Shown: positions 3,226-60,060 of the stretch, piece after piece
How the letters are laid out: each line of letters begins with the position of its first letter
How positions within the stretch are numbered: position 1 is the first letter of the stretch
From: Moringa oleifera
Lineage: Eukaryota; Streptophyta; Magnoliopsida; Brassicales; Moringaceae
Length of the DNA: 64,000 nucleotides
Direction: 5' to 3'
Assembly (NCBI GenBank): GCA_021397835.1
Contig: JAJFZO010000165.1
Span: forward strand, 1,674,001-1,738,000
Notes under the pieces: model-generated
Told to the model about the DNA's origin: nothing
Database searches by the model: none
Seen by the model: only the letters and a program-made list of their open reading frames with translations
Translations under genes and position numbers: made by a program

Positions 3226-3589
3226 TCTGCTTCAACCTTTCATCTAATCATCTTAACGAACTTGATAAGATTAAGTTAGTTTTAATAAAAAAATTTGATG
3301 GAATCTCCCTTGAAAATCAAACTAAAACTCTGTGAAATACATGATGAAAAGACATTGACATTATAATTACATCTACATTAATAATTATAAATTAAAAACA
3401 AAATTTAACTAATTAACATATAATTGCATTTACATTAACAATTAACATCTAATTAATTTAATCTTCATAAAAATTTAATTAAATTATTTATCGTACGTAA
3501 ATTATAATATCTAATTAAACTATTATCTAAATCTAACGTAAACTAAAATTTAGTAACAAAAAAAATTAACAATTCTAAAATTTAATCAA

Positions 3590-4690: not shown

Positions 4691-4846
4691 ATTACATCTC
4701 TAAAGTATATCACTAATTTTTCATTATTTCATCACTATATTAAAATTTTTATTTTGTAATAAATTTGTCGCTATTTTGTTACTATTTGCTGATTAATTAT
4801 GTTTGTCGCTATATTTTGTTGTTATTTTTGAATTTTTTTTATAGTG

Positions 4847-6538: not shown

Positions 6539-6720
6539 CACTACTATAAAAATTGTAATAAGTGATAATAATTTAATGACAGTTATTCAAACAACTATCA
6601 TTAAAAAGTTTTTTAATACTTTTAATGACAATTCTTCCAAAACTATCATTAAAAATGGGATCTTTAACGTCAATTATGATAAACTGACGTTAAATATTAT
6701 CCTTTACAACATGCATGGGG
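6539..6720 (+). mobile_element. CACTA terminus with subterminal hairpins; far end not found
   Basis: Starts CACTACTATAAAAATTG and continues with inverted TTTAATGACAGTT / AACTATCATTAAA and TTTAACGTCAATT / AACTGACGTTAAA pairs. It resembles the complement of the right end of the element at 37517-43478 (both have an AATTTAATGACAGTT block about 33 bases in). Copy 2 of the flanking duplication lacks it: copy 1 reads AAAAAGAG then CACTA, copy 2 reads GAAAGAG then ATTCAAAAATAATG, which fixes this boundary. The opposite TIR is not visible before 10541, so the element is truncated or rearranged. Confidence 0.65.
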
Positions 6721-10541: not shown

Positions 10542-12205
10542 ATCATGATAGTCCATAATTTTTACTGCATAATTAAATGATTTAATGATTCCATAGAACA
10601 AGCCCTTGTAACATCAATAAGTAAGGTCTTGAGTAGAGTTCAAATAGTAGCTTGTTTTAGGTCCTCATAGAAGTTATAATTTGGACAAACATTAGAAGTC
10701 CTTTAACAATTTTCCTTTATCTTCTTAATTGTTCAAAGACTATGCAATTTAGACAAAAAAGGTTGTTTTAACAGGAAAAATGCCTACAATATTTCGTAGC
10801 TTAAAGTTATGTGTAGTACTTATCAAAAACTCCATCTTTTATTATAAAGAATTAAAAAGTTATTAATCAAAAGTATTATATTGCAATGTCTACAGATTAA
10901 ATGCCACCAATTTGGCCTTTAACTCTACATCCATGCTATTTCCTTAAGAATTTATCCAAGAAAAGGTTCCTAAAGTAAACTTCCAACAGGGAAGAATATA
11001 CAACAAAGCCACTTCTACAAGAAAAGAACATATAACAGAACCATAATCATCTGAAGAGCATAATATTCTCCTTAAGGTGTTAAGTAGTAAAGCAACATCA
11101 AATCATTGAGACCTTTAAAGTGCTTCAAAGCCATCATTAGAGTGGAAGAGATAGTAAGAACTTAGTTTGACAAGATTGTGATCCCAGGTAAGTTCAAGAA
11201 AATCATTCCACATAAGACAAATTACAATTTCTAGATAGTTCAAATTCCTCATTTTGATATTAGAATATGAAATGTTCGCTAAAATATACCATTTAGAGAC
11301 TTGTCAAGGTACATGTGGCACATAATAGAGGAATATAATTTGAAGTGAAGAATAAATATCTAATTACACTATTCAACAACATAGTTAATTGAAATCAAGT
11401 ATTAAACTAAGAACTGATGAAGAACCAAATTGATATGAATCGATAAGAACTCCCACTCTCACGAACCTAAAAAATTGGGTATTTTAATGACTTTGCACAA
11501 ATCAATAGTTAATTACTATAATTTTTGTATAAAAGAAGAAAATTAAAAAAACGAAAATCATTCATGAACATAAAACACAACTTCAAAAATGAATCAATAT
11601 TCAAAATCATCACTAGCTTCTTAACTTCTAAGGAAACAAAATTCATGTAAATAATTAAAACAAACTACTTTTAAAGATTATAAAGTTCCTCATTGTTGTG
11701 CTTGGTAAATGATCCCAACAACTAAGACTTCAAATTTGATAAATAGTCATATGCAAGTGCCTGCTATGAAATGTGGATGCTCCATTACAGGAGAAACAAG
11801 AATATTAAAAGGCCTTATCCCTTTATACTAATATATTTTTTAAAATTTTCTTATGATTAATATAACTTATCTTTTAAAAAAGAATTAAAATTAGTTGGAT
11901 AAGAAGTTTGAATCACAATTACATGAAAAATACACTTACAAAATCGACCTAATTGAAAGTTTAGGATTCAAAATAAGAGAAAACAAAAACATCAAGTTCT
12001 TTGTTTCTTTTAATCTTTCTTAAATTTTTCTATTTATAGGAGTGCAAAATAAGTAAGTTTATGGCAACAACCAACTTGTTCACGTCGTTGATGAAGTACA
12101 TAAAAGTAAACTAATTTCTAATTGTCTATGAAACAAAATGATAAAATAAAGATTAAAAGAACTAGTGAAAGAGAAGAAAAGAAAAGGTTAAGAAAATAGA
12201 AAGAG
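10542..12205 (+). repeat. Copy 2 of the 1.7-kb diverged direct duplication
   Basis: Collinear with 4847-6538. It continues past the point where copy 1 is interrupted (after AAGAG at 12205) into ATTCAAAAATAATGAGTACTAGG, so it preserves the unoccupied form of the insertion site seen at 6539. Confidence 0.75.
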
Positions 12206-37513: not shown

Positions 37514-37516
37514 AGA
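37514..37516. repeat. Target-site duplication AGA (left)
   Basis: Directly abuts CACTACTAC; matches AGA at 43479-43481. Three bases is the length expected for CACTA. Confidence 0.85.
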
Positions 37517-37830
37517 CACTACTACAAATAAAAGCTTTAATGACAGTTAAAAATGGTTTTTAATGACAGTTGTAAAAGTGTCATCTTTGTTCATGTCATT
37601 AAAGGGGAGAGTTTTTAATGACAGTTCTTGAACTGTCATTAAAGGGGGTGTCTTTGATGACAGTTCAAACAGAACTGTCGTTAAAGGGGGGGTACCCTTC
37701 AACGACAGTTCCAAACAAAACTGTCATTAAAGGGGGATACTCTTTAATGACAGTTCCAAAGAAACTGTCATTAAAAATGGTACCCTTTAACGACAGTTCT
37801 GTTGGAACTGTCGTTAAAAGGGGATACCCA
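37517..37830. repeat. Left TIR and subterminal hairpin array
   Basis: Six or so inverted pairs such as TTTAATGACAGTTC..GAACTGTCATTAAAG and TTTAACGACAGTTC..GGAACTGTCGTTAAA follow the TIR. In characterised CACTA elements subterminal repeats bind the accessory transposase protein; that role is assumed here. The open frames at 37618-37863 (plus) and 37665-37883 (minus) are products of this array. Confidence 0.85.
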
Positions 37831-38189
37831 TTAAAGGTATTTTTTGTATTTAATTCAAAATAAATAAAATTCAAATTATCCAAAACCTATTTTCACATCA
37901 TCCATATACATCAATACAATTCTTCACAATATATATGCAACCAAAATTTTTATGTTATACGCTTCAATACCATTCTAACAGAGATCGTCATTACTTCTTT
38001 CATATCTGAAAACACTCAAAATAATCTAATGCAAAAAAGTAATAAGAGACAAACAAAACAAAAGATCACTAATATTTGATGTTATAATTAAACTATATAT
38101 GTACAATACAAAAGTTAAAATATTACACAATTATAAAAATTCAACTATATAAATTCAATAATGGTCATGTGTACAAAAATCTTCAAGAT

Positions 38190-38600
38190 TCAACTTTCAA
38201 TATGGCACTCCAAAGAAATTGTCCAACCTCCTTTCTAACTTCATCAATATCCGATTGAGTGTAAGTATCTATGTCCATTAATTATATTTCAAAAAAAAAA
38301 AAGCGGTTAGTCCAATTAAAATTTTTAATACACACATCAATTAATTACTTAAGTATTTACATAAGCAAATGATTAAAAACTTACCATTTTTGCATATGGG
38401 ATATTTCTATTACGTCTATCAATGATGTCCCTTAAAAATTTCATAATATAATATCCACATTCAGTATTTGAAGGCTGATGTGGACACTGCATTAAAAATT
38501 TATCATTATTACATTTTCCAAAATAAATAAAACTAACATCATATACAGGTTTAAATATACATATCTTAGCAGGAATACTCCTAGGAATGCGCCTATTGCT
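38190..38600 (-). pseudogene. CACTA-encoded Ulp1-like cysteine protease, last two exons
   Basis: Minus strand: the exon at about 38385-38600 contains FLMQCPHQPSNTECGYYIMK, with the catalytic Gln and Cys of C48 (Ulp1/SENP) proteases in the usual Q..(x)10..ECGYY spacing, then FLRDIIDRRNRNIPYAKM. A donor (GTAAGT) follows and an acceptor ending ATGGACATAG leads to DTYTQSDIDEVRKEVGQFL and a stop near 38193. This C-terminal layout is standard for the second ORF of plant CACTA elements. The catalytic His/Asp part is missing, so it is a fragment. The residual protease would have acted on SUMO-like conjugates. Confidence 0.8.
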
Positions 38601-38639
38601 TGATTCTTTGAAAACTAGAAACAATTTAAAAGAAGTGCA

Positions 38640-39310
38640 AATAGAAAATAATTAATATTATTAAGAGTAAAAAAAAATATATACTAACATAAATGAAAAA
38701 AGGAAAACAGAGGAAGGAAAAAGAAATAATAAACTGAATGCCAGATATTGACCCTCCACAAGCTCAATCTATATTCATAGTAGAAGAACATAATAGTATG
38801 CATCTGACTTCAACCCAATTTACAGATTCAAATGACAGACTTGTTTAGAGAGACATACAGCCACACATGCATACATATATATCATACTGCCAAGCTCAGG
38901 TGGTTGAAATTTAAAGTTAATAAAGCTGGCTTCTACTAAACAGGTTACATAAGGAAGTTACTAATCCAAGAGGTTTCATAGTTTTCTAACACTGTTAAAA
39001 CACACATTCTAAAGTCATATCTGTTAAGTATTTCAATTTTAATCAAATCTAAGAATTTCAGAATTATCTATTACCACAAGCATAATCGAAAACTGAAATT
39101 TCACTTAAACGAATCTGTTTTTATGGTTATATTGCAATATGTGCCAGAACACAAAAGATATCAGCTTGTGAGGTTAATCAGAACAGAAGGCTCCAGGGTA
39201 ATTCAGCAATGAAAATGATATTCAAGCAATAACAAGTAATTCAGCAATGAAAATGATATTCATGATTACAGCAACAAGGGTCTTTGGAAATCCAGGGGAA
39301 TAAAAAATAC
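38640..39310. other. Junction region between Ulp1 and CTP synthase pieces
   Basis: No coding was recognised. It contains a direct repeat GTAATTCAGCAATGAAAATG at 39198 and 39236 (period 38 bases). It is probably downstream intron or flank of the captured CTP synthase gene. Confidence 0.45.
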
Positions 39311-40769
39311 CTAAGAAAAGTGCAGAAGGTTTCCCTGGCCTGGATTTGAATTCAGGATGGAATTGAGCACCAACAAAGTAAGGATGACTAGGCAGCTCAA
39401 CAATCTGCAGTCAATGAACCAGTAAAATGTTCATAACCACCAGATAATAAACATGATATGAACCTGGAGAATCTTGCAAATTTTCAATCTATGACCTGCT
39501 CTGTCTTGACAAATACCTACCTCCATGCGCCAACCAGTTTCATCTCTGCCAACAAAAGATAAACCAGCACTTTCGAATTTTGATATCATATCAGGGTTGA
39601 CCTGCACAATATTAATTCTTTCTTAATAAACATCAAACAAAAGAGAGTAAATTGAATTTTCCCATTACTTTTCTTCTATGGGCTATATACCTTTCCATTC
39701 AGAAGTTGACTATGGAAAGAAAATTACCTCGTATCTATGCCGATGCCGCTCATCAACAAAGCTTGCATTACCATACCTAAACATGGTTATGAATCATGGA
39801 GAGAGGTTAAACAGACTTAAAGACTTGAGGGGATGATGCAATGACTCAACTATTTCTTTTCAAAGGGATATGCATAAATTCATAACTGAAAAAGGGATGA
39901 TCATCAAGAACAAAGTATATAGTGTATGAACACAAATGAAATCTTGTGATCATGCGAATACAACAATTAAGAAGTTAAAAAGCTTAAGGAACTTATGTCT
40001 TACAACTTTGCAGATTTGCAGTCAGTAACCTTGAAGTAAGTCCTCCTTTAACCCAGACGCATGGTTCCTCCCATGTGAGTTTTTGAACCCTAAAAAGTAG
40101 GGGAAAAAAGATTCAACAAATAAAGCAACTAAAAATAAAAAAGATAAGGTTCAATATGGCAAGATTCATGCAGGATTGCATACCTCGGGCATAAATATAA
40201 CACATGGATTTGAAGTTTCTATGTCAAACTCTGTGCTGTTTGCATCACTCAAACCAAGAACAGATCGAGCAAACTCTATAACTGCAATTTGCATCCCCAG
40301 GCAAATCCCCAGAAACAGAATTTTATTCTCGCGGGCATACTTTGTTGCCAGAATTTTCCCTTGCACTCCTCTATCACCAAATCCTCCTGGCACTAAAATG
40401 CCATCAGCACCCTACATTGGGAGATTGTTCAGACAACTAATGACAAATATCAGACAAATTATGTGAAAATAAAACCAGCAAAATATTGACAGAAATATTA
40501 ATTCAATACAAAGAATCTTTGGGTTAATATCACCTTCAAAAGATCCCATGCAGCTTTATGAACACCCGGCTCCTGCAAGGAGTAAATGATAGCCAATCTG
40601 TAAATTCATAGTAAATGAAAAACTATACAAGTTCATTTTTCTTTTCCTTCAAGTATGGAAATTTTACAATAAAAACTCACCTCTTTTGCAGTAACATGTT
40701 CGAGATCACCTGCTGCAACCCACTCTACAGTAAGCTTCCGACGGCAAGCAACAGAAGCATGCAATAGAG
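39311..40769 (-). pseudogene. Captured CTP synthase fragment (glutaminase domain), seven exons
   Basis: Seven minus-strand exons with GT..AG borders rebuild the CTP synthase linker and glutamine amidotransferase domain: 40681-40769 (ASVACRRKLTVEWVAAGDLE), 40534-40572 (EPGVHKAAWDLLK), 40184-40411 ([19 protein letters not shown], and [20 protein letters not shown] with the nucleophile Cys), 40004-40089 (GSKTHMGGTMRLG, stop, RRTYF), 39728-39776 (YGNASFVDERHRHRYE), 39521-39601 (VNPDMISKFESAGLSFVGRD) and 39311-39404 ([20 protein letters not shown] with the catalytic His and Glu). The enzyme makes CTP from UTP, ATP and glutamine in the cytosol. The N-terminal synthetase half and the extreme C-terminus are absent and exon four has a TAA. 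Introns are retained, so this is a genomic DNA capture. Confidence 0.93.
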
Positions 40770-41065
40770 CTTGTCAAAACAATTAAAAGTAATTAGATTT
40801 GATAAACCAGGTAACATATCAGAGTTCACGCAAAACATAACTAAAGCCAACTTTGACAAATAACTAGATTTAAACAGATAAGGAGAATCGCCGGAGAATG
40901 GAAGGACTGCAGACAAGAAGAATCGCCGGAGAATGGAAGGCTGGCGGTGCAGCTGCTTCTGGACAGTCTGTGAAGAGGAGAATTCTGACCTTAGAGAGAA
41001 AAAATGTAGCGGGAGGTTATGGCAGGCTCTAGAGGGCTCTGAAAAAAATTTGGAACCCACTCTGT
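40770..41065. other. CTP synthase intron remainder and CACTA-type spacer
   Basis: 40770 to about 40870 is presumably the next upstream CTP synthase intron. GAATCGCCGGAGAATGGAAG occurs twice (40884 and 40920, period 36). From 40950 the sequence GCTGCTTCTGGACAGTCTGTGAAGAGGAGAATTCTGACCTTAGAGAG.. parallels the 70-bp repeat and its 3' flank at 52300-52440 in the neighbouring transposase-bearing CACTA. Confidence 0.5.
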
Positions 41066-41157
41066 CCTTCAACGCCAGTTCTTACAGAACTGACGTTGAA
41101 GGTCAGTTCACTGGCCTTCACTGTCCTTCAACGCTGTTGTATCAGTAGTGCTGAAGG
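41066..41157. repeat. Internal hairpin spacer with a TIR-like motif
   Basis: CCTTCAACGCCAGTTCT and AGAACTGACGTTGAAGG form a hairpin (41066-41102), and the same words recur to 41157. GTATCAGTAGTG at 41139-41150 resembles a degenerate CACTA right terminus (complement CACTACTGATAC). It divides the CTP synthase cassette from the heat-shock cassette. Confidence 0.65.
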
Positions 41158-41626
41158 ACATAAGGAAGTGTTAAAAGGTTTCCTAGTTGTGGTTTTAAGT
41201 TAGTGGTAATTGGATCTGTGTAAGCTGCTTGTTCTGTTCTCATGGAGATGCATGTTTAGGACCAGTGAGAGTAAACATGTTTTTGAGAGCATGTGGCCTA
41301 ATATTGTCTTGTTAGATGCAGCTGGTGTTGCTAACCTCTGTTTCTACCGTTTATTGAATGTACTACAGGTTACAATCGAGGATCAGAACACACTAGTGAT
41401 CAAGAGTGGTGGAAAAAGGAAGCGCGAGGAAGGTGAGGAGGAAGGCTGCAAGTACATCAGGCTGGAGATGAGGGCAGTCCAGAAGATGATGAGGAAGTTC
41501 AGATTGCCTAAAAATGCTAATGCTTCTGCAGTGACGGCCAAATGTGAGAATGGGGTCTTAACTGTGGTTGTGGAGAAGCTTCCTCCACCACCAAAGCCTA
41601 AGACTGTTGAAATTACTGTTTCTTGA
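41158..41626 (+). pseudogene. Captured class III small heat-shock protein, intron end plus exon 2
   Basis: An acceptor TACTACAG at 41361-41368 opens an 85-codon exon (41369-41626) ending in [23 protein letters not shown], then [53 protein letters not shown] and TVEITVS. This is the C-terminal half of the alpha-crystallin domain of plant Hsp17.4 class III, including the basic KRKRE motif of this nuclear class and the GVLTV beta-9 strand. The family has one intron at this place, and its 3' part is kept here. Exon 1 is missing, so no full chaperone can be made. The upstream 138-codon open frame starting at 41210 runs through the intron and is not a natural start. Confidence 0.9.
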
Positions 41627-41634
41627 AGGAAAAC

Positions 41635-42577
41635 CATGGGAGAAATTTTGCAGAGAGCAGCCTCATCCTCTGTTAACTTCTTCTTTTTCTTCTTTTTTGA
41701 TTTCTTCGATGAATTCATTTTATTCACATAGAACTTATGGAAGACAAGATCCTCTGGAGGCACGTCTGCTTCAGCCAAGGAGAGAATCGCTTGCCCAATC
41801 AATTGGTTGGACATGTCAAGCTGAGGACATAGAAAAGCAATTTAGCAAGATATTTGAGGAATTTGTTAATCCAGAACAGCTAACAATGAAGGTGTGAGAG
41901 AAATAAGGGCAACAGAAATGGAAAACTAACCTTTTTAGCAGGCTCGATTTGGGAGCCACCATGCCATGTGCTTGCCTTTGGTTTCTTTTCCATGAACTTG
42001 TCTAGGAAAGCAGTGAGTGACAGATCATTTAATGGGTTACCATTGTAAATGATATTGGTCCCTGAAAGAAGAGTTCCAGCCATGGTGGCAACTGATGGGT
42101 GCACATGTGAAGCAAGTACCATCAACTCCCACCAGCTTGCACGGTCTGCATTGCTGTTAATTCATTCAAACACAGAAGGACAAGACAACAAATAACTATC
42201 ACATTAAATTAAGGAAAATGTTAAGAAAAAACAGGCAGTGCAGTTTTATCATCGTGATACTTTTCATTAATCTTATAGCCAACTACTTGAGATGCCTAAA
42301 GCTAACATTACTGATAGGATGATTACCAGTAAGAAGGTTCCCTGTGCCGTGGGTCGTATCCACCTGGCAGGAAAGTCTTTGCAGAGGACACTTGTGGATT
42401 GTGCCCATTATGATCAGATACTTGTTTAAGTTGCTGAAGATCTTCTGAGTTATCTTTCATAAGAAGTTCCTCTCCATCATCTGAAGTACCATCTTCATCA
42501 TCAAAATCAGAGGCAGGCAAGTTTTCTTTATCTTCTGAAGAATCAGTGTCTGAGTCAGCAAAATTAGAGGCCAGCAA
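41635..42577 (-). pseudogene. Captured CEBPZ/NOC1-type CCAAT-binding protein fragment, three exons
   Basis: Minus strand, high to low: exon 42327 to about 42577 (acidic SDTDSSEDKENLPASDFDDE, later FLPGGYDPRHREPSY), exon 41931-42153 (NADRASWWELMVLASHVHPS, LLSGTNIIYNGNPLNDLSLT, WHGGSQIEPAKK) and exon from about 41640 to 41820 (LDMSNQLIGQAILSLAEADV, PPEDLVFHKFYVNKMNSSKK and a poly-Lys run). Splice signals are intact (TACTG|GTAATC, TTAACAG|C, AAG|GTTAGT, CCTCAG|C). These match the conserved C-terminal part of CCAAT/enhancer-binding protein zeta, a nucleolar factor of 60S ribosome biogenesis. The fragment meets the heat-shock exon tail to tail near 41635, and the open frame continues antisense into it as a chimera. 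Confidence 0.88.
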
Positions 42578-42825
42578 CCTTCAACGTCAGTTCTGTAGAA
42601 CTGGCGTTGAAGGTTACTGGCCTTCAGTGCCAGTTCTGTAAGAACTGGTGTTGAAGGCCAGTGTACTGACCTTCAACGTCAGTTCTGTAGAACTGGCGTT
42701 GAAGGTTACTGGCCTTCAGTGCCAGTTCTGTAAGAACTGGTGTTGAAGGCCAGTGTACTGACCTTCAACGTCAGTTCTGTAGAACTGGCGTTGAAGATTA
42801 CTGGCCTTCAGTGCCAGTTCTGCCA
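42578..42825. repeat. 92-bp tandem repeat made of two hairpins (about 2.7 copies)
   Basis: Copies start at 42578, 42670 and 42762 and are almost identical. Each contains CCTTCAACGTCAGTTCTGTA / GAACTGGCGTTGAAGG and GCCTTCAGTGCCAGTTCTG / AGAACTGGTGTTGAAGGC inverted pairs. It divides the CEBPZ cassette from the next captured fragment. Confidence 0.9.
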
Positions 42826-43200
42826 ATTCATCGAAGAGAGCCTCCCCTGGATCAGGTGCTCTGCACTCATTGACATTGGACCGTAATCAAGTTTCTTCAT
42901 CAGCACTGGCTGTTCAACAGGAGCTATGGCATTTGGTGTAGAGGAGGATTTCCCTTTCCTTGTAGACATGAAAGCTATAGCCGCAAATGGACTCAGCACA
43001 AGCAACGAAATCCCCAGTACATTCTTCATGAACAACTTGTTTTCTGACTCCTCCCCTGCAGACTCCACCATTTCCAAAAGCTGTAAATTCTCAGGAGAAA
43101 TAGCAAATCCGGACCTTGGTGCTGCCTCTTGCAGCAACAGCAGCAGCCATTGCTGCAGCAAGGAAAGCAGCAGCAACCCATACTGTGGCAATATGGCCTT
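42826..43200 (-). pseudogene. Captured fragment of an unidentified membrane-type protein
   Basis: A minus-strand frame open for about 125 codons reads ..SGFAISPENLQLLEMVESAG, EESENKLFMKNVLGISLLVL, SPFAAIAFMSTRKGKSSSTP, then PVEQPVLMKKLDYGPMSMSA and EHLIQGRLSSMNWQ. One hydrophobic span (NVLGISLLVLSPFAAIAFM) followed by a basic patch looks like a single transmembrane helix. The Leu/Gln-rich upstream part is an out-of-phase Ala-rich (GCT/GCA) run. Composition is plainly host-like and GC-richer than the surroundings. I do not recognise the family; a chloroplast-targeted protein is a guess from the Ala-rich lead. Confidence 0.55.
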
Positions 43201-43478
43201 TGACGCCAGTTCTTTCAGAACTGGCGTCAAAGTTTTAACATTTAACGTCAGTTATAATGGAACTGACGTTAAATGTATCTTTTAACGTCAGTTCCATTAT
43301 AACTGACGTTAAATGTTATGTTTTAACGTCAGTTCTTAAGGAAGTGACGTTAAAAGTATTGCTTTTGATGATAGTTTTGAAATAACTGTCATCAAAAATG
43401 TTGATGAATCTTTTAATGACAGTTCTTTGAATAACTGTCATTAAATTGATGTCAATTATTGTAATTTTTGTAGTAGTG
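43201..43478. repeat. Right subterminal hairpin array and TIR
   Basis: Successive inverted pairs grade from GACGCCAGTTCTTTCAGAACTGGCGTC-like, through TTTAACGTCAGTT.AACTGACGTTAAA, to TTTAATGACAGTT.AACTGTCATTAAA, then the terminal TTTTTGTAGTAGTG. Confidence 0.88.
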
Positions 43479-43481
43479 AGA
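43479..43481. repeat. Target-site duplication AGA (right)
   Basis: Matches 37514-37516. Confidence 0.85.
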
Positions 43482-44804: not shown

Positions 44805-47456
44805 AACGGATCCAATTGACCTTGGTCAACTCTTCATCACATCTTTTAGTCTATTAGGTTATATGATATGAATTAATCTTTGATGATAGATTCCAATATA
44901 AAGGATCAAAAATACTGTACACAAAATTACGAGGCTTGGCAACCACCAATAGTTAGTGCTGCCTACATTATGAAAAATGAATGCTAAAAATATTGTGAAC
45001 AAAACTATTAATAATTATGACTAGTATTATAACTTACCTCAAGCTATAAGGAAATATCACTACTCCTCCATCACATAGATCTATCATTCTATTAACTAGG
45101 TGACGGGCTTGGGTGTCTATACTTATAGACATTCCATAAAACAATGTTAACGTATCAGCAAATACAAAATACTTCCCCAAGCCAAGTGCAGCTAAATCTA
45201 TATAAAGTTTACTGAAATAACAAAGAGTAAAAAAATATAAATATGATGTAGCCAAACAATAATAACAAAATAAAAATTGAAAAGATATATGTACATAATG
45301 TAAGCCTAAATAATGGTGACACTTAGCTCCTTCATGTGACAAAAATTGCATGATATCTTCTCGAGCCATAAATACATGTCCATCAGAAGCAAAGACTTTA
45401 GTAAAAGGTATGTGTATTGCTTCATTAAGTGCCATCACCTTATTCATATAATTATACATATTCTGCAATCTTGGTGGTAGCCCAATGGAAGATACTTGTT
45501 GCAATGATTGTGGTTTTGTCAATGTTGGTGCTCTCTTAACTGGCAACTTACCTTGTTGCTTTATAGTCAGTAAATGAAAAAATTTGCAAACTTAATTGAC
45601 ATTAATAGGATGACTTTATAAAATAAATTTACGAAAAACATTACCTCATGTGTACTAACAATGACCCAATATGGAGACCAAGCAACAACTGAACTGAGTG
45701 CAAAAAAAAAAAAAATTTGTTAATCCACGTGTGGGTTTGGGTGAGGCAATTGTGCATCACCATGAATAGCTATGTCCACTATCACCCGAACATCACAAAA
45801 AAATAATTGATGCCTATGGATCATCTGATTAGAAGTATGATCCATGAAGATAACCCCATTTGCCACTATGTAGTCTGGTGATTGGATGAACACATGGCAT
45901 GGCTCACACTACAATGATCCAAAAAAAGGAAGCTATGTTTGTAATATTATTAATATCATATATATTATGATTAACATGTAACATACTTTGTTGTTGTAAG
46001 GTGCCAGTGCAGGTATAGGTGCTGGTGGTGTGATTGGTACAGGTGATTAAGGTATTGGATATTTTTCTTCCTCTAATAATCTAGTAATATTATTGCTAGC
46101 TTTACTCGAACGAAATTGCATTGCAGATTTTTTTTACTAGACATCAGTTTCGTTCGCCACAATGTTTGTCAAAACTTCTTTATACTTTATGAATTGCCTC
46201 ATCATCTCTGCCAATTGCTATTGATCTAATTGCATACCTTGAACGACAGTCAACTTTTTGGGCTTCCTAAAATAAGATGTGATAGTTACCTCAAATCCTT
46301 GACCTCTAATGCGTCCGGGGTGCTCAAGTGTACCACAAGCTTTCGTTGGCACATCTTTTAGATCGAAGGTTGTAAATTTACCCTTGTGCTCTGTGTCATC
46401 AACTTATCCTACAATGTTATAATAAAATTAATCAATGAACATGAAATTTATTACTACAAATGCTATAAAAAAGCTGAATTACACTTATAATTCTTTTTCC
46501 ACATAATTGGCTTGCATCATTCATGTATTCTCCATTTTTATTTTATCATGAAGCCTTTCACAATAAGGCATATAATCAATTTGAGCATCGCTACCCAGTG
46601 TTTTTTTTTTTCACATAAAGAATGAACATGTTAGATTTTTAGAACATACCATCAAATGAATATATTATCAATTATAAATCTAATAAATGAAAAATAACTT
46701 ACAATTTCATTCTTCAGCCCTACAAATCCCTTTCTAAATAGACGATGGTTGTACACATTCTTCTTTCTTTTCTCTTTTGCTATTTGTCTCTTTTGCTATA
46801 AGATTAATACACGTCAACATTTGAAGAAAATTGTATAAACAAAAACTTTACTAACTATAAATGTATACCTGAAACTCTTCTGTCATACAAGAGTTCACAA
46901 AGTCGTGCCACACCCCAACATCTATGACATTGCTATATTTTTCAAGTGGAAATGATAGAAATTTCAAGTCATCAATGTGAGGGAATATGTGCATTAATGT
47001 AAGATTGGCCTTGAAGTTCCTCCATTAATTTGGAACATATTAAAGTACGTACCTCGTCATGCTTGCATTAATTAGTATCAGATGTCTCTTACAACGTATT
47101 ATAAAAAATTGGATTAGTACAAATCAAATTAATTAGCGATAAACAAATTAAAAAGCAATAGCGCATTGTATTTCATTTAACTTACCAATATTGTCTCCCA
47201 AATCTTATTTTTCATTTCATAGCTTACTGAGTGCCAATTTAGGATATTTATGGGCATGTATTATGTACCACCACCTCAATGTAGCTATTGAACTGGGTGC
47301 CATTCCTCCCAATTGGTTGACCTTTATCATTTACCTCGATCATGAGCGTAACGTTGGAAGCACTACTCTTAATTATCTTAGGCATACTAGTGATACATCT
47401 TTTTTTCAACCCTTGAGAGTCTTCACTTGAGTGTTCAAAAGGATCGATCAAATCCA
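44805..47456 (-). pseudogene. CACTA second ORF: Transposase_24 domain plus Ulp1-like protease
   Basis: From a likely ATG at 47456 (MDLIDPFEHSSED) the minus strand gives RCITSMPKIIKSSASNVTLM and EVNDKGQPIGRNGTQF (47250-47400), the core of the Ptta/En/Spm Transposase_24 domain, then IFPHIDDLKFLSFPLEKYS and WHDFVNS (about 46870-46990), HPGRIRGQGFEVTITSYF and the coiled-coil tail QLAEMMRQFIKYKEVL (46135-46330), and after introns LPPRLQNMYNYMNKVMALNE (45400-45500) and NRMIDLCDGGVVIFPYSLR (45040-45095) entering the Ulp1 fold, with DPLYWN at about 44885. The catalytic Cys exon is absent. Several stops and shifts are present. It likely acted as the DNA-binding/accessory protein of the element. Confidence 0.72.
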
Positions 47457-47598
47457 TAAAAAAAAAAAAAAAGGTTAGCATCATATATGCAAAACATGAT
47501 ATAACATGATAAAACCAAAAAAATAAAATAAAATTATAAAAGACACGATAACTTTGACACATGAGGCAATTGATCACTACCTTAAAAAATACTCAAAC

Positions 47599-50500
47599 CT
47601 ATAATCCTTCACCGTTGTCTCAAGCATATGCAAGATAATAGTCATCCATTTGGTTAAATAAATCAACAGGTGGCAAATTATTACAAAAAAATAGGTGCTC
47701 TACACTAATATTGTACAAATCATCATCTTCATCATAGTCTTTTGGAAGTGTTGACAATACTATAGACCATTTGGCATCAATTGGATCTTCAATGTAAAAT
47801 ACTTGTCTTGCTTATGAAGCTAATATAAATTGATCATTTCTATGTCCAATCCGATTGAGATCAACTAGCACAACCCTTAGATCATTAACTTTAACACCAC
47901 TATTATTCTCAAACCAATCACATATGAAAACTAAAACTCTAAAAGTTGTATAATCTAGTTCCCATATTTCTGGTATAACTCTATAGAATGACAAATCACT
48001 ATATATTGGATTTTTATCTTAGCACTAGAGATTTGCATGGTGTTGGCAACTAGAGTGACACCACTATTTTGATAGATCCTTGAGTTATCTCATTACTTTA
48101 TATAAAAGCGACAATTGTTGATGATATATCTAGGATACTTTATTACTGTGGATCGAGGAACATGGGCAATCCGTCGTAGTGTTAATGAGACACTATGATT
48201 GGATAATAAAAGTTCATTCTCAATCTGTATCATAATATATATTAGATGAACCATATTAGAAATAAATTTAATGTCTAGACAAGAATAAGTATTCTTACTC
48301 GTTTGCGTACCCAATTACTTGAGGTTCGATTTTGTTCATCATGTAACCATTTAAGTTGTTTTGACTTAATACAATTGTCGACCCTAATTGATTTAAATGC
48401 TTATTTCATATTAACAATAAATCATCAAACAATAATTCAAATATTATTTGATATCACAATGAACTATGAGTTGTAAAATTTAATTACCTTATATATGGTT
48501 GAAATTCGCTTATATTCATTAAAACATACAAGTGCGCTTGATGAAGGAAGACATTATCAGCTTTCTCAACAGTTCCACTAGTTAGAGCTTTTCCATTATA
48601 AGTTGAGTGACCAAATACATTCTTTCATGGAGGAATCCTAATAATATCCATACCAGATGAATAATCAACACAGAATTCTAATGCCTTTTCTACAATGTAA
48701 GACTCAGCGATACTACTTCAGGTCTATTACGATTTCGAACATAACCCTTTAACACTTTCATATATCTTTCAAATAGGTACATCCATCATAAATACACAAG
48801 ACTTCATAATTTTACTTCTTTGATAAGATGAACAATGAGGTTAACCATAATATCAAAGAAGCAGGGAGGAAAGTACTTCTCAAGCAAACAAAGTGTTGTC
48901 ATAAGTTTGTTTTGGATTCCATCTAACTTTGACACATCCACCACCTTTTGGCATAACAAATTGAAGAATATACAAAGTCTAATAAGAGCATATCTAACAT
49001 GTTTGGGTAACACACCTCGTAAAGCAATAGGTAAAAGTTGTTGCATTAGGATGTGACAATCATGCGACTTCAACCCATATAGTTTCAAGTTGTCCATGTA
49101 TACAAGAATTCTGATGTTTGAAGAATACCCATTTGGGGCCTTAATCTCACTGAGAACTTCATAAAATATATATATTTTTTTGTTCCTTAGATAAAGTATA
49201 ACATGTAGGCAGTGGAAATATACGATTACCACGAGCTTGTGGTTCTAATTCAAACCTTAACCCCATGTCTTTCAAATCCATTCTAGAAGCTAATCTATCT
49301 TTATATTTTTTAGGAATATCAAACAATGTTCCAAGAAGGCTGTCACGAACGTTCTTTTCAATGTGCATGACATCTAGAATATGTCTGATATGCATGGACT
49401 TCCAATATGGTAAGTCAAAGAAAATCGATATCTTTTTCCAACATTGTGCAACAACATCTTCTTTACCCATTGTACTCTGTTTCTTCGACTTTCCCCATGA
49501 ATTTACTAAGCATTGAACTTTGTGAAAGACTTCTTTATTGCTAAATGGTTGGGAAGCAGTTCTGACTTCTTGTTCACCATTGAAGGCCTTTTTCTGTCTA
49601 CGGTAAGAATGATGTCGTGGTAAGAATCTTTTACGTCTAACATATGACATCTTTTTACTATGTTTTAAGTGACTAGCCTGGGTATTCTCGGCACAAATAG
49701 GACAAGCATAATATCCTTTAATAGTACAACCAGACAAATTACCATATGCAAGAAAATCATTGATTGTCCATAACAAAACAACTTTCAAGTTAAATGACAG
49801 ATTGTGGTATGCATCATATACTTTTACACCTGTGTCCCATAATATTTTCAAGTCTTTTATAAATGGAGCCAAGTAGACATCGATATCATCACTAGGTTGT
49901 TTAGGACCTGATATTAATAACGTCAACATCATGAACTTTCTCTTCATTATTAACCATGGTGGTAAATTATAATTCACCATAATCACCGGCCAACAATTAT
50001 ATCGATTACTCAATGTACTGTGTGGATTGATCCCATCTGCTGATATAGAAAGCCTTAAGTTTCTTGGCTCTTAAGTAAACTCCAACCACATGTAGTCAAC
50101 CAATAATTTCTATGATGGTGTATCCGATGGGTGCCTCAACTGACCACCAATTTCCCTTTTATTCAAATGCCGTGTAAGGTTGTTTTGATATTTTAGAACT
50201 TTTAAACATTCTTCTAAATCTTGATATTGGTGGAAAATACCACAACACCTTAGTAGGCACACCAATCTTTATGTTGTTACCATTTTTCATTGCTTTCCAT
50301 CTTGAAAGTCCACAAGTTGGACATTGGATGTCATCTTGGAACTCCTTCTAATATAATATGCAATCAATTGGACAGGCATGAATCTTTTGATACTCCATGC
50401 CTAATGTATTCAATGTTTTCTTGGCATCATACATGGATGTAGGCATTTCATTATTATCAAGCAATATTTTGGCAATCGAATTTAAAAGATCACTAAAGCT

Positions 50501-50976
50501 TTAATTGGACCAACCATATTTCGCCTTTAAATTGTACAATTTAACTAAAGCACATAATTTAGTAAACTTTGTTGATCCAGAATACAGATGTTTCTCAGCA
50601 TCACAAAGTAATATGTCAAAGTAGTTAAGATTACTATCATACTCTGCAAATGCCTCTTGTACCATTTCTACAGTGTTATCAAGTTCTTCGATGTGTTCCA
50701 CCTCCCTAACAACTTTAGCATTCTCACTAGTAGAAGACCCAACAATACTAATTTCTCCATGCCATATCCAATTTTGATAGCTACTAGCAACTCCATATAC
50801 ATATAAATGATTCCATATCTCACATGGAGTATGACACTTCATATTACCATATTTAATTCATGGACACCGAACTAATTCAGGGTTATCGCTATTCTGAATA
50901 ATGTAATCCAAAAAGTTATTCACCCCTACATCATATGGCTCTGATCTTCTACCAGCAAACATCTCAGTTTTATCCA
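47599..50976 (-). pseudogene. TNP2-type CACTA transposase
   Basis: ATG at 50976 (MDKTEMFAGRRSEPY) begins a Transpos_assoc domain (FLDYIIQNSDNPELV, EIWNHLYVYGVASSYQNWIW). YDAKKTLNTLGMEYQKIHAC with ..CPTCG..R follows at 50280-50460. Transposase_21 (about 49150-50040) has LPPWLIMKRKFMMLTLLISG, PSDDIDVYLAPFIKDL and HILDVMHIEKNVRDSLLGTL, carrying the second Asp and the final Glu of the predicted DDE triad, and the zinc-like CxxC of CPICAEN. DUF4218 (SEIKAPNGYSSNIR, HDCHILMQQLLPIALRGVL) lies at 48810-49160 and DUF4216 (WELDYTTFRVLVFICDW, VLVDLNRIGHRNDQFILAS) at 47812-47990. Stops and shifts (for example CP*IKYG near 50860) make it a pseudogene. The intact enzyme cuts and pastes CACTA ends in the nucleus. 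Confidence 0.9.
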
Positions 50977-52081
50977 TTCTGAAATTTAAATAACATTTAA
51001 TTATTTAATTTTCAAGCATCTAATATATTAAGTAAAATTTAAATAAATGATTAATAATTAATTAATTAATTAATATTAAAAGTTAATATTTACTTAACAG
51101 CTAATTTATTACTATAAAAGCATCTAATTAACTAGCTAGTAAATTTATTAAATTTTAAATAACATTTAATTATTTACTTTACAAGTATCGAATTCATTAA
51201 GTAAAATATAAATACATAATTAATAACTATTTAATTAATTAAGATATAGTCAATATTTAATTAACATCTAATTAATTACTATATAAGCAATTAACTAGCT
51301 AGTAACCTAATTAATATTTAAATAACATGTAATAACATGTAATTTTTTATTTCACAAGCATCTAATTTATTAATATTAGCTAAATAAATAATTAATAGTT
51401 AATTAGTTAATTAATACATAGTAAATTAATTATCATCTAATTAGTTACTACATAAACATCTAACTAGCTAGTAACTTAATGATTAAAATTTAAATAACAT
51501 TTAATGATTTATTTTACAAACATCTAATTAATTAATTATCTATTTAAAATTAAACTAATTATATGAATTAAGTTAACTACAAAATCGATATAATTAAATT
51601 TGACAAAATATACTAATTAATCTTACTTAAAAAAATTAATTCAAACATAAATTCATCTACACTTAATATATAATTAATTTATCAAAATATAAATTTATCT
51701 AATTAACATCTAATAAATTTATCAATTAATCTAAAAATATTAATAATTTTCAAATAATAAATGCATCAATGTATACCCATTCATGTCAAATATATTCATC
51801 GAAATATACATACAAAAATAAAACCCAAATTTTATCAATTAATAGAAATTCACCAAACACACTTGACAAAGAATTTCTCAAAATAATATACATTCTCAAT
51901 ACATTTTTTAAAGAAAAATTAACCAAATTGAATCAAAATTATGAAACATAAATTTCATAAAAAAATTTTGAATCTATACCGAAATACTTACATATGTTTG
52001 AATGCCAAAGATGAACGAATGGAGGGAGAGGGTGTGGTTGCCCTTGTAAAGATTGAGACAAGTGAGAGAGAAAGGAGCAAG
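50977..52081. other. Very AT-rich upstream region of TNP2
   Basis: Dominated by ATTTAATTATTTAATT and CATCTAATTAATTA words with degenerate internal repetition; no coding. It probably contains the promoter and first intron of the transposase gene, which cannot be delimited. Confidence 0.5.
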
Positions 52082-53935: not shown

Positions 53936-54130
53936 ATTCTATACATCTAAAAAAAACATAAATAATGTTCTATATTACTAACAAATAAGAACATCTATTT
54001 TGTAGAGTTATGGGGAATCATTATTAATTATATTTGATTGCTTTTTATTTGTGGCTATATTAGGATCTAGTGGAGAAATGAAAATGTTTACATAGAGTCT
54101 CTTTTCATGAGGAAACCATACGTCATTCTA

Positions 54131-55648
54131 GTATGGAACCTTCTTTGGAGCAACAAAGACAACCACAATCTAATGTTGAACCTTCTATTGAAGAACATTG
54201 CAGCACATTCGTAGCTAAAGAGTGATGCAATACATCAAATAAAAATTAATTAGTATTAAGTGATCAAATAATTTTCTATTACATACGTCATTTCCGTTAA
54301 AAAATCAATTATGTTTTCATTTTCGTATTCTTCAAAGAAAAGGAAAAAAAAAAGGGCTTACATTACTAGCACACATTTGGAATCAACCTAAAGAAAAAGG
54401 TAATTATGTAGTTTGATGATAAAGGATAAGCAATCAAAGATAAAGGACGTGTACTTGCTAGTTTCTTAGGCAATTTGGCAAGAAATCCAAATAGAATTCT
54501 TTTTCATATTGACAATTGGAAAATGTTCCCAAAGAAAGATAAAGAGAACTTGTTGACATTAGTGAAGGAAAACAGGCATTAAAATCTAAATATTATTTGT
54601 TGTCTTGGAATTTAATTAAATAGGTAAAATATGTTGTGCATTTGTTGATTTATTTTGTATACTTTAATGTAGTGAAAAATTTTAATATTCCAAAGAGGTG
54701 AAAAATGGGTGTTGCATCACTTGGAAAGAAGTGGAAGGATTACAAGGGTGAGAAGAAAACTAAATTTTTTTAAGAACTCTTAAACCCTAGACTTGCATAA
54801 GTGGACCATCCTAGTTTCATTTTTGCATTTAGAGAAAAATAAGGTGATTGATTGAATTAAAAAAATAAAATAATATTCATGTGACAATATGATAATAATG
54901 ATTATCATAATATTGGAAATATCGCACAACGAGAAAAAAATTGAACGAATTTAAAGATGGCACATATCAGGGGATCTAAAAGCATTGCATGCTTGATGAG
55001 TAAAAAAGTAAGATATGTTTTTTTATAAGTTGGTCTAATAACAAATCATTTGAAATGTATTTGATAATAATTGCAACATTATATGTATTGATTTAACAAG
55101 CAAAAGATAGACAAGAGCCATCATGACAACATATATTCAGAGACACTTACAACGAACACAAAAATAAAAGACCACTCAATGAGGTATCTACTCGTGTAAT
55201 GGTAAATTTATATAAACCCTCAAAATGCATTGCTATACCAAGTTCTTGGTTTTTCAACATAATTTTCTTTAAATATTAAAAAAAGTATATATTAACAATA
55301 TTTTTTATATATTATATTGGGCATAAGATTTAATGAAAGATAAGTTAAGTCAATGTGGATGTTCAAATGAGCAATTAAAAGAACCAATAGCTTGGAAAAA
55401 TGGTATATATTCACAAGTAACGGGACCAATTTAAAAGAAATGGTCATATGCATGAATTATTAGAATTGGTCCAATGTTGACTATATTATTCTCTTGCACG
55501 AGAAAAAGTGTCATGAGATAGTTCATAAGTTGAAAAATGACTTGAAGATGATGAAGGAAAATAAAAAACATTTGGAAGTTGAGCTTGCTATGATAGGATC
55601 ATTGTTAATAGGAAGGTTTTCTCAAACAATAAATATTAAACCTAATAG
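54131..55648 (+). pseudogene. Tandem unit 1: Transposase_24-type accessory gene remnant
   Basis: Unit starts at GGAACCTTCTTTGGAGCAAC. The plus strand reads LTLLAHIWNQPKEKG, GRVLASFLGNLARNPNRI and HIDNWKMFPKKDKENLLTLV (54360-54570), then LGKKWKDYKGEKKTK (about 54720), a RWHISGDLKAL/RGSK segment (about 54955) and a coiled coil with KMMKENKKHLEVELAMI (about 55540-55600). This matches the W..P.G..I.V..ND.GQP.G....LLGSFLGTLARN..H..I...W....K..LL..V layout of plant Ptta/En/Spm proteins. Stops and possible introns interrupt it. It is a different lineage from the domain at 47.3 kb. Confidence 0.65.
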
Positions 55649-57136
55649 TACGGAACCTTCTTTGGAGCAATAAAGTTAACTGCAATCTAATGCTAAACCT
55701 TCTATTCAAGAACATTACAGAACAATCATAGCTGGAGAGTCATGCTAGACATCTAGTAAAAATTATTTAGTATTGATTGATCAAACCATTTTCTATTACA
55801 TAACTCATTTCCTTTAAAAAATCAATTATGTTTTCATTTTTCATATTCTTCGAATGAAAGGAAAAAAAGAGGGCTTACATTACTAGCACACATTTGGAAT
55901 CAACCTAAAGAAAAAAGGTGATTGTGTAGTTTGATGATAAAGGATAAGCTATCAAAGATGAAGGACGTGTAGTTGCTAGTTTCTTAGGCAATTTGGCAAG
56001 AAATCCAAATATAACTCTTTCTCATATTGATGATTGGATCAAAGAAAGACAAAGAGAAGTTGTTAATATTGGTGAAGGTAAACAGGCGTTAAAATCTAAA
56101 TATTATTTTTTGTCCTAGAATTTATTTAAATAGGCAAGATATGTTGTGCATTTGTTGATTTTCTTGTATACTTCAATGTAGTCAAAATTTTTAATATTCC
56201 AAAGAGGTGAAAAGTGGGTGTTGGATCACTTGGAAAGAAGTGGAAGGATTACAAGTGTGAGAAGAAAAAAAAATCTTTTAAGAGATTCAAAAATAAGAAC
56301 TCTTAAACAATAGACTTGCACAAGTGGACCATCCTAGTTTCATTTTTGTATTTAGAGAAAACTAAGATGGTAGTTGAATTAAAAAAATAAAATTATTTTA
56401 ATGTCATAATATGATATTAATGATTGTTATAATATTAAAAATATTGCACAACGAGAAAAAAATTGGATGAATTTAAAGATGGTACATATCGGGGGATTCG
56501 AAAGCATTGCATGCTGGATGACTGAAAAGGTAACATATGCTTTTTTGTAAGTTAGTCTAATAATAAATCATTTAAAATGTATTCGATAATAATTGCAACA
56601 TTATATGTATCGATTTAAAAGCAAAAGACCAAAGAGAGCCATCATGGGCAAATATATTCAGAGATACTCATAAGGAACGCAAAAATAAAAGACCACTCAA
56701 TGAGGTGTCTGCTCCTAAAAATGCATTTTTATACCAAGTTCTTAATGTTTAAATATAATTTTCTTTAAATATTAAAAGATATATATATCAACAATTTTTT
56801 TATATATTATATTGAGCATAAGATTTAATGAAAGATAAGATAAGTCAATGTGAATGTTCAATAAGCAATTGAAAGAACCAATAGCTTGGAAAAATGGTAT
56901 ATATTCACAAGTGATAGGACCAAATTAAAAGAAATGGTCTTATGCATGAATTATTAGAATTAGTCCAATATTGACTACATCATTCTCTTTCAAGAGAAAA
57001 AGTGTCATGAGACAGTTTATCAGTTGGAAAATGACTTAAAGATGATGAAAGAAAATAAAAAACATTTGGAAGTTAAGCTTGCGTGATAAAATCATTATTA
57101 ACCGAAAGGTTTTCTGAAACAATAAATATTAAAGCT
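55649..57136 (+). pseudogene. Tandem unit 2 of the Transposase_24-type remnant
   Basis: Same order as unit 1: GRVVASFLGNLARNPNITL and HIDDW (about 55960-56035), LGKKWKDYKCEKKK, GGFESIACWM-like (about 56500), and coiled coil ENDLKMMKENKKHLEVKL (about 57025-57080). About 1,488 bases long. Differences from units 1 and 3 are scattered substitutions and small indels. Confidence 0.65.
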
Positions 57137-58605
57137 TATGGAACCCTATTTGGAGCAACAAAGTCAACCGCAATCTAATGCTGAACCTTCTATTCAAGAA
57201 CATTGTAGAACATTCATAGCTGGAGAGTGATGCAATACATCTAGTAAAAATTACTTGGTAATGAATGATCAAATCATTTTTTATTACATAAGTCATTTCT
57301 TATAAAATTATGTTTTCATTTTCATATTCTTCAAATAAAAGGGAAAAGAACTGGCTTACATTACTAGGACACATTTGGAATCAACTTAAAGGAAAAAGGT
57401 AATTATGTAGTTTGATGATAAAGTATAAGCTATCAAAGACAAAGGACGTGTACTTGCTAGTTTCGTAGGCAATTTGGCAAGAGATCCAAATATAACTCTT
57501 TTTATATTGACAATTGGAAAATGTTCCTAAAGAAAGATAAAGAGAACTTGTTAATATTGGTTAAGGTAAATAGGCATTAAAATCTAAATATTATTTTTTT
57601 TGTCCTAGGATTTAATTAAATAGGTAAGATATGTTATGCATTTGTTGATTTTTTTGTATACTTCAATGTAGTCAAAAATTTTAATATTCCAAAGAGGTGA
57701 AAAATGGGTGTTCGATCAGTTGGAAAGAAGTGTAAGGATTACAAGTGTGAGGAGAAAACTAAATCTTTTAAAAGATTCAAAAATAAGAACTCTTAAACAA
57801 TAGACTTGCACTAGTGGACCATCCTAGTTTCATTTTTGTATTTAGAGAAAACTAAGATGAGTGGTTGAATTAAAATAATGAAATTATTTTTATGCAATAA
57901 TATGATATTAATGATTGTTATGCTATTGGAAATATCGCACAACGAAAAAAATCGGAAGAATTTAAAGATGGCACATATCAGGGGATCTAAAAGCATTGCT
58001 TGCTTGATGGGTGAAAAGGTAAGATCTGTTTTTTTATCAGTTAGTCTAATAACAAATCATTGAAAATGTATTTGATAATAATTGCAACATTATATGCATC
58101 GATTTAACAAGCAAAAGACCAAGCAGAGCCATCATGGGCACATATATTCAAAAATACTCACAAGGAACGAAAAAACAAAAGACCACTCAATGAGGTGTCT
58201 GCTCATATAGTGGTAAATTTATATAAACCTTAAAATTGCATTGACATACAAAGTTGTAGTTTTTAAATATAATTTTCTTTAAATATTAAAAAATTATATA
58301 TTAACAATATTTTTTTATATATTATATTGAGTATAAGATTTACTGAAAGATAAGTTAAGTCAATATGGATGTTCAAATGAGCAATTAAAAGAAGTAATAG
58401 CTTGGAAAAATGGTATAATGGGACCAAATTAAAAGAAACAGTCACTACATCATTCTCTTGCATGAGGAAAACTGTCGTGAAATAGTTCATAAGTTGGAAA
58501 ATGACTTGAAGATGATGAAAGAAGAGAAAACATCTGAAAGTTGAGCTTGCAATGATAAAATCATTGTTAATAGGGAGGTCTTCTAAAACAATAAATATTG
58601 AACCC
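57137..58605 (+). pseudogene. Tandem unit 3 of the Transposase_24-type remnant
   Basis: Starts GGAACCCTATTTGGAGCAAC. Keeps RNPNI..FLGNLAR-like coding near 57440-57500, the ERKIGRI/NRKNLKMAHIRGSKSIACL stretch (57935-58005) and the coiled coil near 58490-58560, with a 55-60 base deletion relative to the others around 58410-58450. Ends where the next copy would begin. Confidence 0.63.
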
Positions 58606-60060
58606 AATATATCATTTAACAATCAAGTATAATCTACTTTATATCTTTTATTGTGTGTGGTTGTTAATTGGTGTTGATTCTAACTTCATTGAAATTACAT
58701 TTCTAGATACATGAATTATTATAATTTATTGAAGACTCATGATCTTTTCTCTTGTTTTAGTTTTCATAATTAGACATCTTTTTAGGTCACATGTGATATG
58801 TAATGTTTGAAGTTGTTTTGGTGCAAGGAAATAAGACTAAGTGACAATAATCATGCATGTTCTTCTACAGAGAGTTTAAGTGATTTCAATTTACTTAGTA
58901 AAGTATTGTAACATTTTGTAAAATGAAAACTATATATTCTTCTCTTATGCAAGATTTGCACTTGTTTAGTTGCAGTAAAGAAATTATTTCAAAATTTTGT
59001 ATTTCAAAATAAAGGAAATTCATTTAAGTTTTACATTTTAAGCAAGTTGACAACTACTATCACAAATTTTTCTATATTTGATGTATCCATAGCATTTTAA
59101 TTTGTAGTGGCGATATTAGAAAAGCCTTTTAGATTATTTTAGGTAGTATATCAATAGCCTTTCTATTTGACTGAAAGATTTCAACAACCATTAATTATTT
59201 TTACGTAAAGTTTGATAACATATCTTTGCACTAAGAGACCACCAAGCATCAATTTAGCAGGTCTGTTAGTCTGAATATGGTTGTTTAAACTCTTAGTGAA
59301 ACACGAAATGATATCTAAACCAATGAACTACTTCATTGAATTATGCCAAATAGTTTAAGATAATGGTATGCATGTGTTCAGTATTTGCTTTGCCTTCTTC
59401 CTTGGCTTTCTTATTTTACATTATTACTTGTTATGGTTTGTTGCAATTAGATAGCCCTATTTATTGCATATTGTTTTTGATGCCTATGTAATTCAACCAT
59501 GGATAAAAAGAATCTAGCCGAAAAGTGGCATTGATTTTGGATCTTTACTAGTAGCTAATAAGTTTTGTATCATGATTTAATCATGATTGAATTTGTTTAA
59601 ACCATTATGTAGGCTCGCTTGGATAATAATATCGTTTAAAGTCATGTCATACTGAAATGTTTTAATCATTGAGATGCATGTTCTAATTATTTTTTTTTTA
59701 TATTTGATATATTCCTGATTGTTGAGTACTCATAAAGGTTTTTAAGAAATGGTTAAAGTCCTATGTCTAAACCTTGTTTATATATATTTTTCATTTTTAG
59801 GTTATACATTGTGAGCTAACCATCATTAATTAGATATTAACAAAATGATATTTTATGGAGTTAGTGTATTAATTTTTGTTGACTCTTTAAATTTAAAAGC
59901 ATCGGTGAACTTATTACTTGGAATTGTATTTTCATTAAAAGATTATTTAACATTTCGAATATTTTGTTATGTATGAAGGTACGGTGTAAATAATATTTTA
60001 GTTATGAATGAATGTATTCATTTAATTACATGGTCAGTTAAAAATGTTTAATTATTGTAC
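58606..60060. other. AT-rich, no recognised feature
   Basis: No coding domain, LTR or TIR was recognised. Confidence 0.4.

Follow-up and report, generated by a model that had tools for sequence, protein, structure and literature searches.

Introduction

The soybean element Tgm-Express1, a 5.7-kb CACTA insertion, holds intron and exon sequences taken from five unrelated genes of its host; according to the part of its description drawn on here, the acquisition of these fragments is poorly understood (PMC1947982). Several loci are frequently found within a maize Pack-TYPE element, Pack-CACTA elements having the most, and within the sections of that study used here CACTA Pack-TYPE copy numbers are mostly low in the two species compared (PMC8903248). 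The mechanism proposed for Pack-CACTA in the relevant passages of two papers is that of neighbouring insertions (PMC8903248, PMC13317346). In animals, an account of Pack-TIR elements reports microhomology at joints (median 2 bp) together with de novo insertions, and covers FoSTeST models and the filling of gaps by template switching (PMC8277862, in the portion consulted), while the CACTA elements of Chenopodium are described, in the excerpt considered, as having captured gene fragments in their 5' region, for example 80 bp of AP2 (PMC8978399). The route by which CACTA elements acquire host genes remains debated, the choice being between fused neighbouring insertions and faulty repair. Here we analyze a 64,000-nucleotide stretch of the Moringa oleifera genome (assembly GCA_021397835.1, contig JAJFZO010000165.1, positions 1,674,001 to 1,738,000), referred to below as the window. 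Its positions 37517-43478 very probably form a complete non-autonomous CACTA element of the Pack type, with cargo built up in layers—a degree of confidence that covers the identity of the element and the layering of its cargo, the copying mechanism being graded separately.

Results

Source genes of the cargo

The original prediction, read from the letters of the window, had described a gene-capturing CACTA element with exons of several unrelated host genes. We searched one assembly of 279.5 Mb in 669 contigs. Source genes for all of the cargo are still in the genome, on C563, C522 and C549, and the predicted capture of host exons is borne out by their 98-99% identity to the captured pieces and by their extension past them. 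Because each cargo piece has a source gene of such identity elsewhere, capture by copying is well supported. The plurality of host genes needs one correction: four gene pieces are present, but they derive from three source loci, since the genes for the class III small heat-shock protein (sHSP) and NOC1 adjoin. Neither the same exon order outside the CACTA ends nor AGA flanks stemming from two insertions were found in this assembly. The features of the element and its target site duplication (TSD) are as follows, with the strand where one applies.

37514-37516: left TSD AGA (sequence; single AGA at the related empty site)
37517-37528, plus strand: left terminal inverted repeat CACTACTACAAA (exact pattern search)
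37529-37840: left subterminal hairpin repeats of the GACAGTT...AACTGTC type, the repeats at about 37536-37822 (repeats and family copies)
37841-38699, minus strand: family left body with C-terminal Ulp1-like exons (family matches; weak PF02902)
38688-40883, minus strand: captured CTP synthase segment, GATase exons and introns, one premature stop (alignment to C563:5803-5808k)
39198-39262: scar inside the CTP synthase piece, a 27-bp direct duplication (the donor has 179 extra bases there)
40884-40905, plus strand: 22-bp filler at the right CTP synthase joint, an exact copy of 40919-40940 (the donor match stops at 40883)
40899-41110: family module with a hairpin at its end, adjoining the HSP/NOC1 piece on the left (family matches)
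41133-41659, plus strand: captured class III sHSP, comprising the 3' part of the intron, exon 2 (41369-41626) and 3' flank (donor C522:1209139-1214728)
41656-41659: AGCA, a 4-bp microhomology at an internal deletion that removed 1172 donor bases (common to C519:575k and C612:634k)
41656-42561, minus strand: captured NOC1/CEBPZ (MAK21) exons, in the same captured segment as the sHSP (99% to C522; PF03914)
42562-42577: filler at the NOC1 right edge, with imperfect likeness to NOC1 about 60 bp upstream (common to the window, C519:575k, C612 and C518)
42577-42822: internal hairpin array of the subterminal type, in 92-bp units (repeats)
42819-43108, minus strand: piece captured from an uncharacterised gene for a plant membrane protein (98% to the long open frame at C549:4271.8k)
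43106-43108: AAT, a 3-bp microhomology where a second internal deletion occurred (up to 909 bp of the gene is kept in other copies)
43194-43445: right subterminal hairpin repeats (repeats)
43467-43478, minus strand: right terminal inverted repeat CACTACTACAAA (exact pattern search)
43479-43481: right TSD AGA (sequence)

The CTP synthase fragment named in the original prediction is confirmed by PF00117 (GATase), by PDB matches, 25 of 25 of which are CTP synthases, and by alignment to the C563 donor. This alignment contains 44 mismatches in 2196 aligned positions (98.0% identity) and gaps of 179, 3, 1 and 1 bases, and by eye the donor has more CTP synthase exons on both sides of the captured stretch. 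The premature stop of the window piece is located at the donor Ser of GSRRTY. A genome search with the piece returned only the window element, the C563 donor and pieces of a distant paralogue on C532 (3 of 3 candidates scored).

The sHSP and CEBPZ/NOC1 identifications hold equally well. The sHSP piece carries PF00011, and the spliced protein of its donor gene matches '17.4 kDa class III' proteins along its length, with 77-80% in the best rows; NOC1 is identified by PF03914, and the C522 donor gene has its best matches in MAK21 (E 8.8e-28). The two genes are convergent neighbours at C522:1209139-1214728, tail to tail, and this donor runs on beyond the captured ends, with exon 1 of sHSP upstream and additional exons of NOC1 at the opposite side. 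The window retains donor positions 1489-2012 and 3185-4090. Longer copies exist elsewhere, one at C572:3033k reaching donor position 4486 and one at C572:2326k holding 1485-4467, and therefore one contiguous piece of ~3.0 kb was captured: the sHSP and NOC1 sequences are a single captured segment from two adjacent genes, later cut down inside the element. The AGCA deletion fused a NOC1 exon in frame to antisense sHSP sequence, resulting in an open frame of 152 amino acids (aa) on the minus strand through 41656-41823; the corresponding frame of the sibling L053 has 165 aa. A foreign origin of these pieces, for which the first searches seemed to give no donor, is ruled out, C522 being the gene pair itself. 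The next closest sHSP genes after C522 and the element copies stand in a row at C563:11937-11942k and are class II-like by eye.

The remaining fragment, which had been left without a name in the original prediction, can be traced to a long open frame on C549. The frame has 810 aa, 678 of them within the donor stretch compared, and its homologues are named 'transmembrane protein' in several species, the best (44%) being from Carica; like the homologues named for the sHSP, those listed come from flowering plants. Donor positions 882-1790 (909 bp) are kept in copies on C627, at C516:2072k and in two on C572; the window keeps 290 bp. Apart from the donor, at least 25 element places, the window among them, hold the piece with E 1e-18 or better; all 45 candidates were scored and 40 matches listed.

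Termini, insertion site and family

The 12-bp inverted ends CACTACTACAAA are identical at 12 of 12 positions and are the sole two exact copies within the window. With one mismatch allowed the window has three matches, whereas 0.42 are expected, and three were reached by 1 of 100 shuffles. These searches and the window sequence itself agree with the perfect termini, AGA duplication and subterminal hairpins that had been predicted. Further hairpin repeats lie in the interior of the element, at about 41058-41110 and 42577-42822. CACT(A/G) is the terminal consensus given for CACTA ends in the relevant part of PMC4423477; ends of this form, a 3-bp TSD and complex subterminal repeats at both ends make this a CACTA (En/Spm, DTC) element. 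A Pack-MULE identity, with Mutator-type ends and a 9-bp TSD, is ruled out by the CACTA ends and the 3-bp TSD. The two flanks, once joined, align across the insertion point with C519:2232581-2232900 (75%), which has only one AGA there. This is a related empty site, and the element is therefore a real insertion into repeated sequence.

The element belongs to an abundant family. Its left end is found in at least 40 places (40 of the 40 scored match, of 686 candidates), as is the module at 40899-41110 (again 40 of 40 scored, of 265 candidates). The left body, predicted to hold the Ulp1 exons of the transposon, is likewise common to the family, occurring in at least 40 places, window included (40 of 40 scored, of 718 candidates), at 89-97% identity apart from the window itself; the Ulp1 assignment is weaker, with a partial PF02902 match of E 0.0023 and 18.2 bits, below the 20.7 cut-off. 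A tnp2-type transposase is present in the family as Transposase_21 in the sibling C519:575k, interrupted by in-frame stops. The transposase-bearing body of this sibling is not in the window element, based on the compared loci, with no whole-element scan. Matching 3-bp TSDs flank two other copies, TTA at C572:2326k and ATA at C516:1793k; in the copy C2 the right end was not found by exact pattern search. As a moved unit the cargo is multi-copy for the HSP/NOC1 and C549 pieces, while the version with CTP synthase is single-copy and has its own TSD.

Probable order of captures

The cargo pieces are nested in their distribution: the CTP synthase piece is found in one element, the sHSP piece in nine (window included) and the donor, and the C549 piece in at least 25, and eight of the nine sHSP elements also carry the C549 piece. 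The most likely order of capture is the C549 gene, then HSP/NOC1, then CTP synthase. This order comes from the nesting of the cargo, and the order of copies from shared scars and cargo presence, not from a tree. In C25 and C516:1587k the 40899 module lies 0 and 4 bases from the C549-bearing block, and their C549 joint is the same as that of the window up to one base. Such a layout is the one expected before sHSP/NOC1 capture, though a later loss would look alike. The filler at the right edge of NOC1 is common to the window, C519:575k, C612:634k and C518, and the AGCA deletion joint only to the first three.

The two nearest relatives, C519:575k and C612:634k, have ~7.0 and 7.2 kb separating the left body from the 40899 module, spans that come from coordinates, partly read, with each taken to be one element. 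In C519:575k this body includes Transposase_21 and DUF4218 in frames split by stops; the C612 body was compared in its last part only. At this position 2.2 kb of CTP synthase stands in the window in place of the ~7 kb of these relatives, and therefore the last capture most likely replaced the transposase body.

The history would thus begin with a CACTA lineage copying ~0.9 kb of the C549 gene. A 3.0-kb piece would then have been copied from C522, spanning the 3' halves of the convergent sHSP and NOC1 genes, and the cargo-bearing element would have multiplied, its copies shedding internal parts by microhomology deletions. In the window copy only, the ~7 kb body, with a transposase in at least one near relative, would have been replaced by 2.2 kb from the C563 CTP synthase gene, before insertion at the present site. 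The element would presumably have been mobilized by transposase from its relatives.

Joints and the probable copying mechanism

We compared the joints with the donors and relatives and checked them by script. Microhomology is found at the left CTP synthase joint (4 bp, AAAA), the left sHSP joint (2 bp, GC) and the left C549 joint (4 bp, TCTG), as well as at the deletion joints (AGCA, 4 bp, and AAT, 3 bp). Random joints on the same templates have a mean of ~0.7 bp, reaching 4 bp in ~2%, 3 bp in 6% and 2 bp in 18% of cases. The 22-bp filler, the 27-bp duplication at the 179-base loss and the NOC1-like filler are signs of a copying enzyme letting go and re-annealing. The copying step was probably template-switching repair or replication: error-prone synthesis, during gap repair or replication, would have switched templates guided by 2-4 bp of microhomology and left templated fillers. 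Beyond this step, the chances are about even that gene capture in this lineage is a repeatable replication error, in which switching out of and into the element, perhaps aided by hairpins, layers the cargo, the last switch having replaced the transposase body and turned the element into a parasite of its own relatives. The number of joints is too small for any claim of their clustering at hairpins.

Several observations weigh against this history or its mechanism. The TSDs are off by one base in C627 (CAG/TAG) and C532:3019-3027k (GTA/ATA), so that TSDs match in three and differ by one base in two of the five copies, the window among them, whose flanks were both compared; C516:1793k and C532 were each paired from a left-end and a right-end locus, taken as one element by coordinates. 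C518 has the HSP/NOC1 piece without a C549 match, although 19 bases of it match the C549 joint in inverted orientation. No fork is well supported in the sHSP-block tree, which is star-like and places the donor on a short branch. Neither the 2-bp sHSP joint (0.18) nor the 3-bp AAT joint (0.06) is rare by chance, and capture joints make up three of the five microhomology joints, AGCA and AAT being later deletions. The NOC1 right edge (donor position 4090) likewise arose later, since other copies reach 4467-4486. Finally, deletions repaired by end joining may likewise leave microhomology and fillers, and fused neighbouring insertions with inner deletions may give a similar outline. The inverted match in C518 (C518:4833083-4836997, L018) is to the junction of the hairpin and the C549 piece, and suggests further rearrangement there.

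The last of these objections corresponds to a mechanism reportedly advanced by Catoni et al. in 2019 for Arabidopsis Pack-CACTA, in which two family copies insert on either side of host DNA, their inner ends are lost and the whole is mobilized as one element. The present element has the appropriate outline, a left-end half to 38699, host DNA and a right-end half from 40899, yet such an origin is unlikely here: the compared donor stretches are without family sequence beside the captured pieces, and this model predicts neither the exact 22-bp filler nor the scar within the CTP synthase piece. No family sequence was found beside the donor pieces in 3.3-5.6 kb per donor, a span that an excised or more distant insertion would escape, and the donor stretches gave 190 matches to other loci and the window, only four of them outside the captured pieces and all four to the CTP synthase paralogue. 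More doubtful again is the joining of a broken host or extrachromosomal piece into a break inside the element, without a template switch. Short joint microhomology and fillers are of the end-joining type, but this route requires free genomic fragments of 2-3 kb, and the donors retain the captured stretches, so the fragments must first have been copied. Template switching by a copying enzyme remains our preferred account of the joints.

Selection on the cargo

The HSP/NOC1 exons of nine pooled copies differ from the donor by 18 synonymous substitutions in 1302 sites and 59 nonsynonymous in 4701, a ratio of nonsynonymous to synonymous rates (dN/dS) of ~0.9, where the pooled counts are not independent, the copies sharing history. 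Stops are present in 2 of the 9 copies. For the C549 exons the pooled counts are 39 synonymous in 991 and 46 nonsynonymous in 3446, and the resulting ratio of 0.34 counts donor-branch changes in every copy; stops occur in 4 of the 16 copies used, out of 25 places. Selection on the cargo is not clearly supported by the pooled dN/dS, and the cargo is best seen as passenger DNA. Co-option, with the captured exons kept as a useful chimeric protein or regulatory RNA, is very improbable: the sHSP and NOC1 exons retained in the window are open, a deletion created the fused 152-aa NOC1/antisense sHSP frame and the C549 ratio is 0.34, but the HSP/NOC1 ratio and stops, the premature stop of the CTP synthase piece, the counting of donor-branch changes in every copy for the C549 ratio and the stops in that piece all argue against it.

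Other sequences in the window

To the right of the element, window positions 44900-51889 hold a relative of the family internal body, with 81-90% identity for most pieces. Transposase_21 lies on its minus strand at 49159-50070 (E 5.5e-79); DUF4218 is also present, and Transpos_assoc scores below threshold. A terminal repeat bounding this body, exact or with one mismatch, was not found within the window. Two more family ends lie in reverse orientation, a left-end match at 1-82 that extends from 82 out past the window edge, and a right end at 6539-6694 whose terminal repeat, at 6539, carries one mismatch. A 1.7-kb direct duplication (4844-6538 and 10539-12205, 81%) has its first copy stopping exactly before the CACTA end at 6539. 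The self-matches of ~1.5 and 3 kb at 84% in 54129-58609 are as from three head-to-tail units of ~1.5 kb.

Discussion

Donors, joints and intermediates are available in one genome for this element, and the two models of gene capture therefore make differing predictions that can be checked at named loci. The sHSP and NOC1 pieces also show that neighbouring genes taken as one block may look 'unrelated' after an internal deletion, which matters for the annotation of gene-carrying transposons.

The original prediction had called the combination of fragments in under 6 kb notable. The combination is present, but the claim is weaker than stated, as Tgm-Express1 has five fragments in 5.7 kb. The two elements share a multi-gene cargo of under 6 kb within CACTA ends and differ in the genes captured, and in the present case the donors, intermediates and joints are all found in one assembly. 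Chimeric transcripts have been demonstrated for Tgm-Express1, in the part of its description considered. Pack-CACTA elements are similar in having CACTA ends around host exons; their published mechanism is the fusion of neighbouring insertions, while the joints described here favour template switching, and one cargo piece is common to at least 25 places, in contrast to the mostly low copy numbers in the sections of PMC8903248 used. Pack-TIR elements have joint microhomology and template-switch gap filling in common with this element, but they are metazoan, whereas here the captures are successive within one plant CACTA lineage. The Chenopodium CACTA elements differ in that the excerpt considered describes single fragments, as opposed to the layered cargo with donors seen here. 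Gene-carrying CACTA elements are thus an already known kind. The chief value of the present one lies in how fully its history can be read, from its three donors and the joint capture of two genes to the ordered scars and the probable replacement of a transposase body by part of a host gene.

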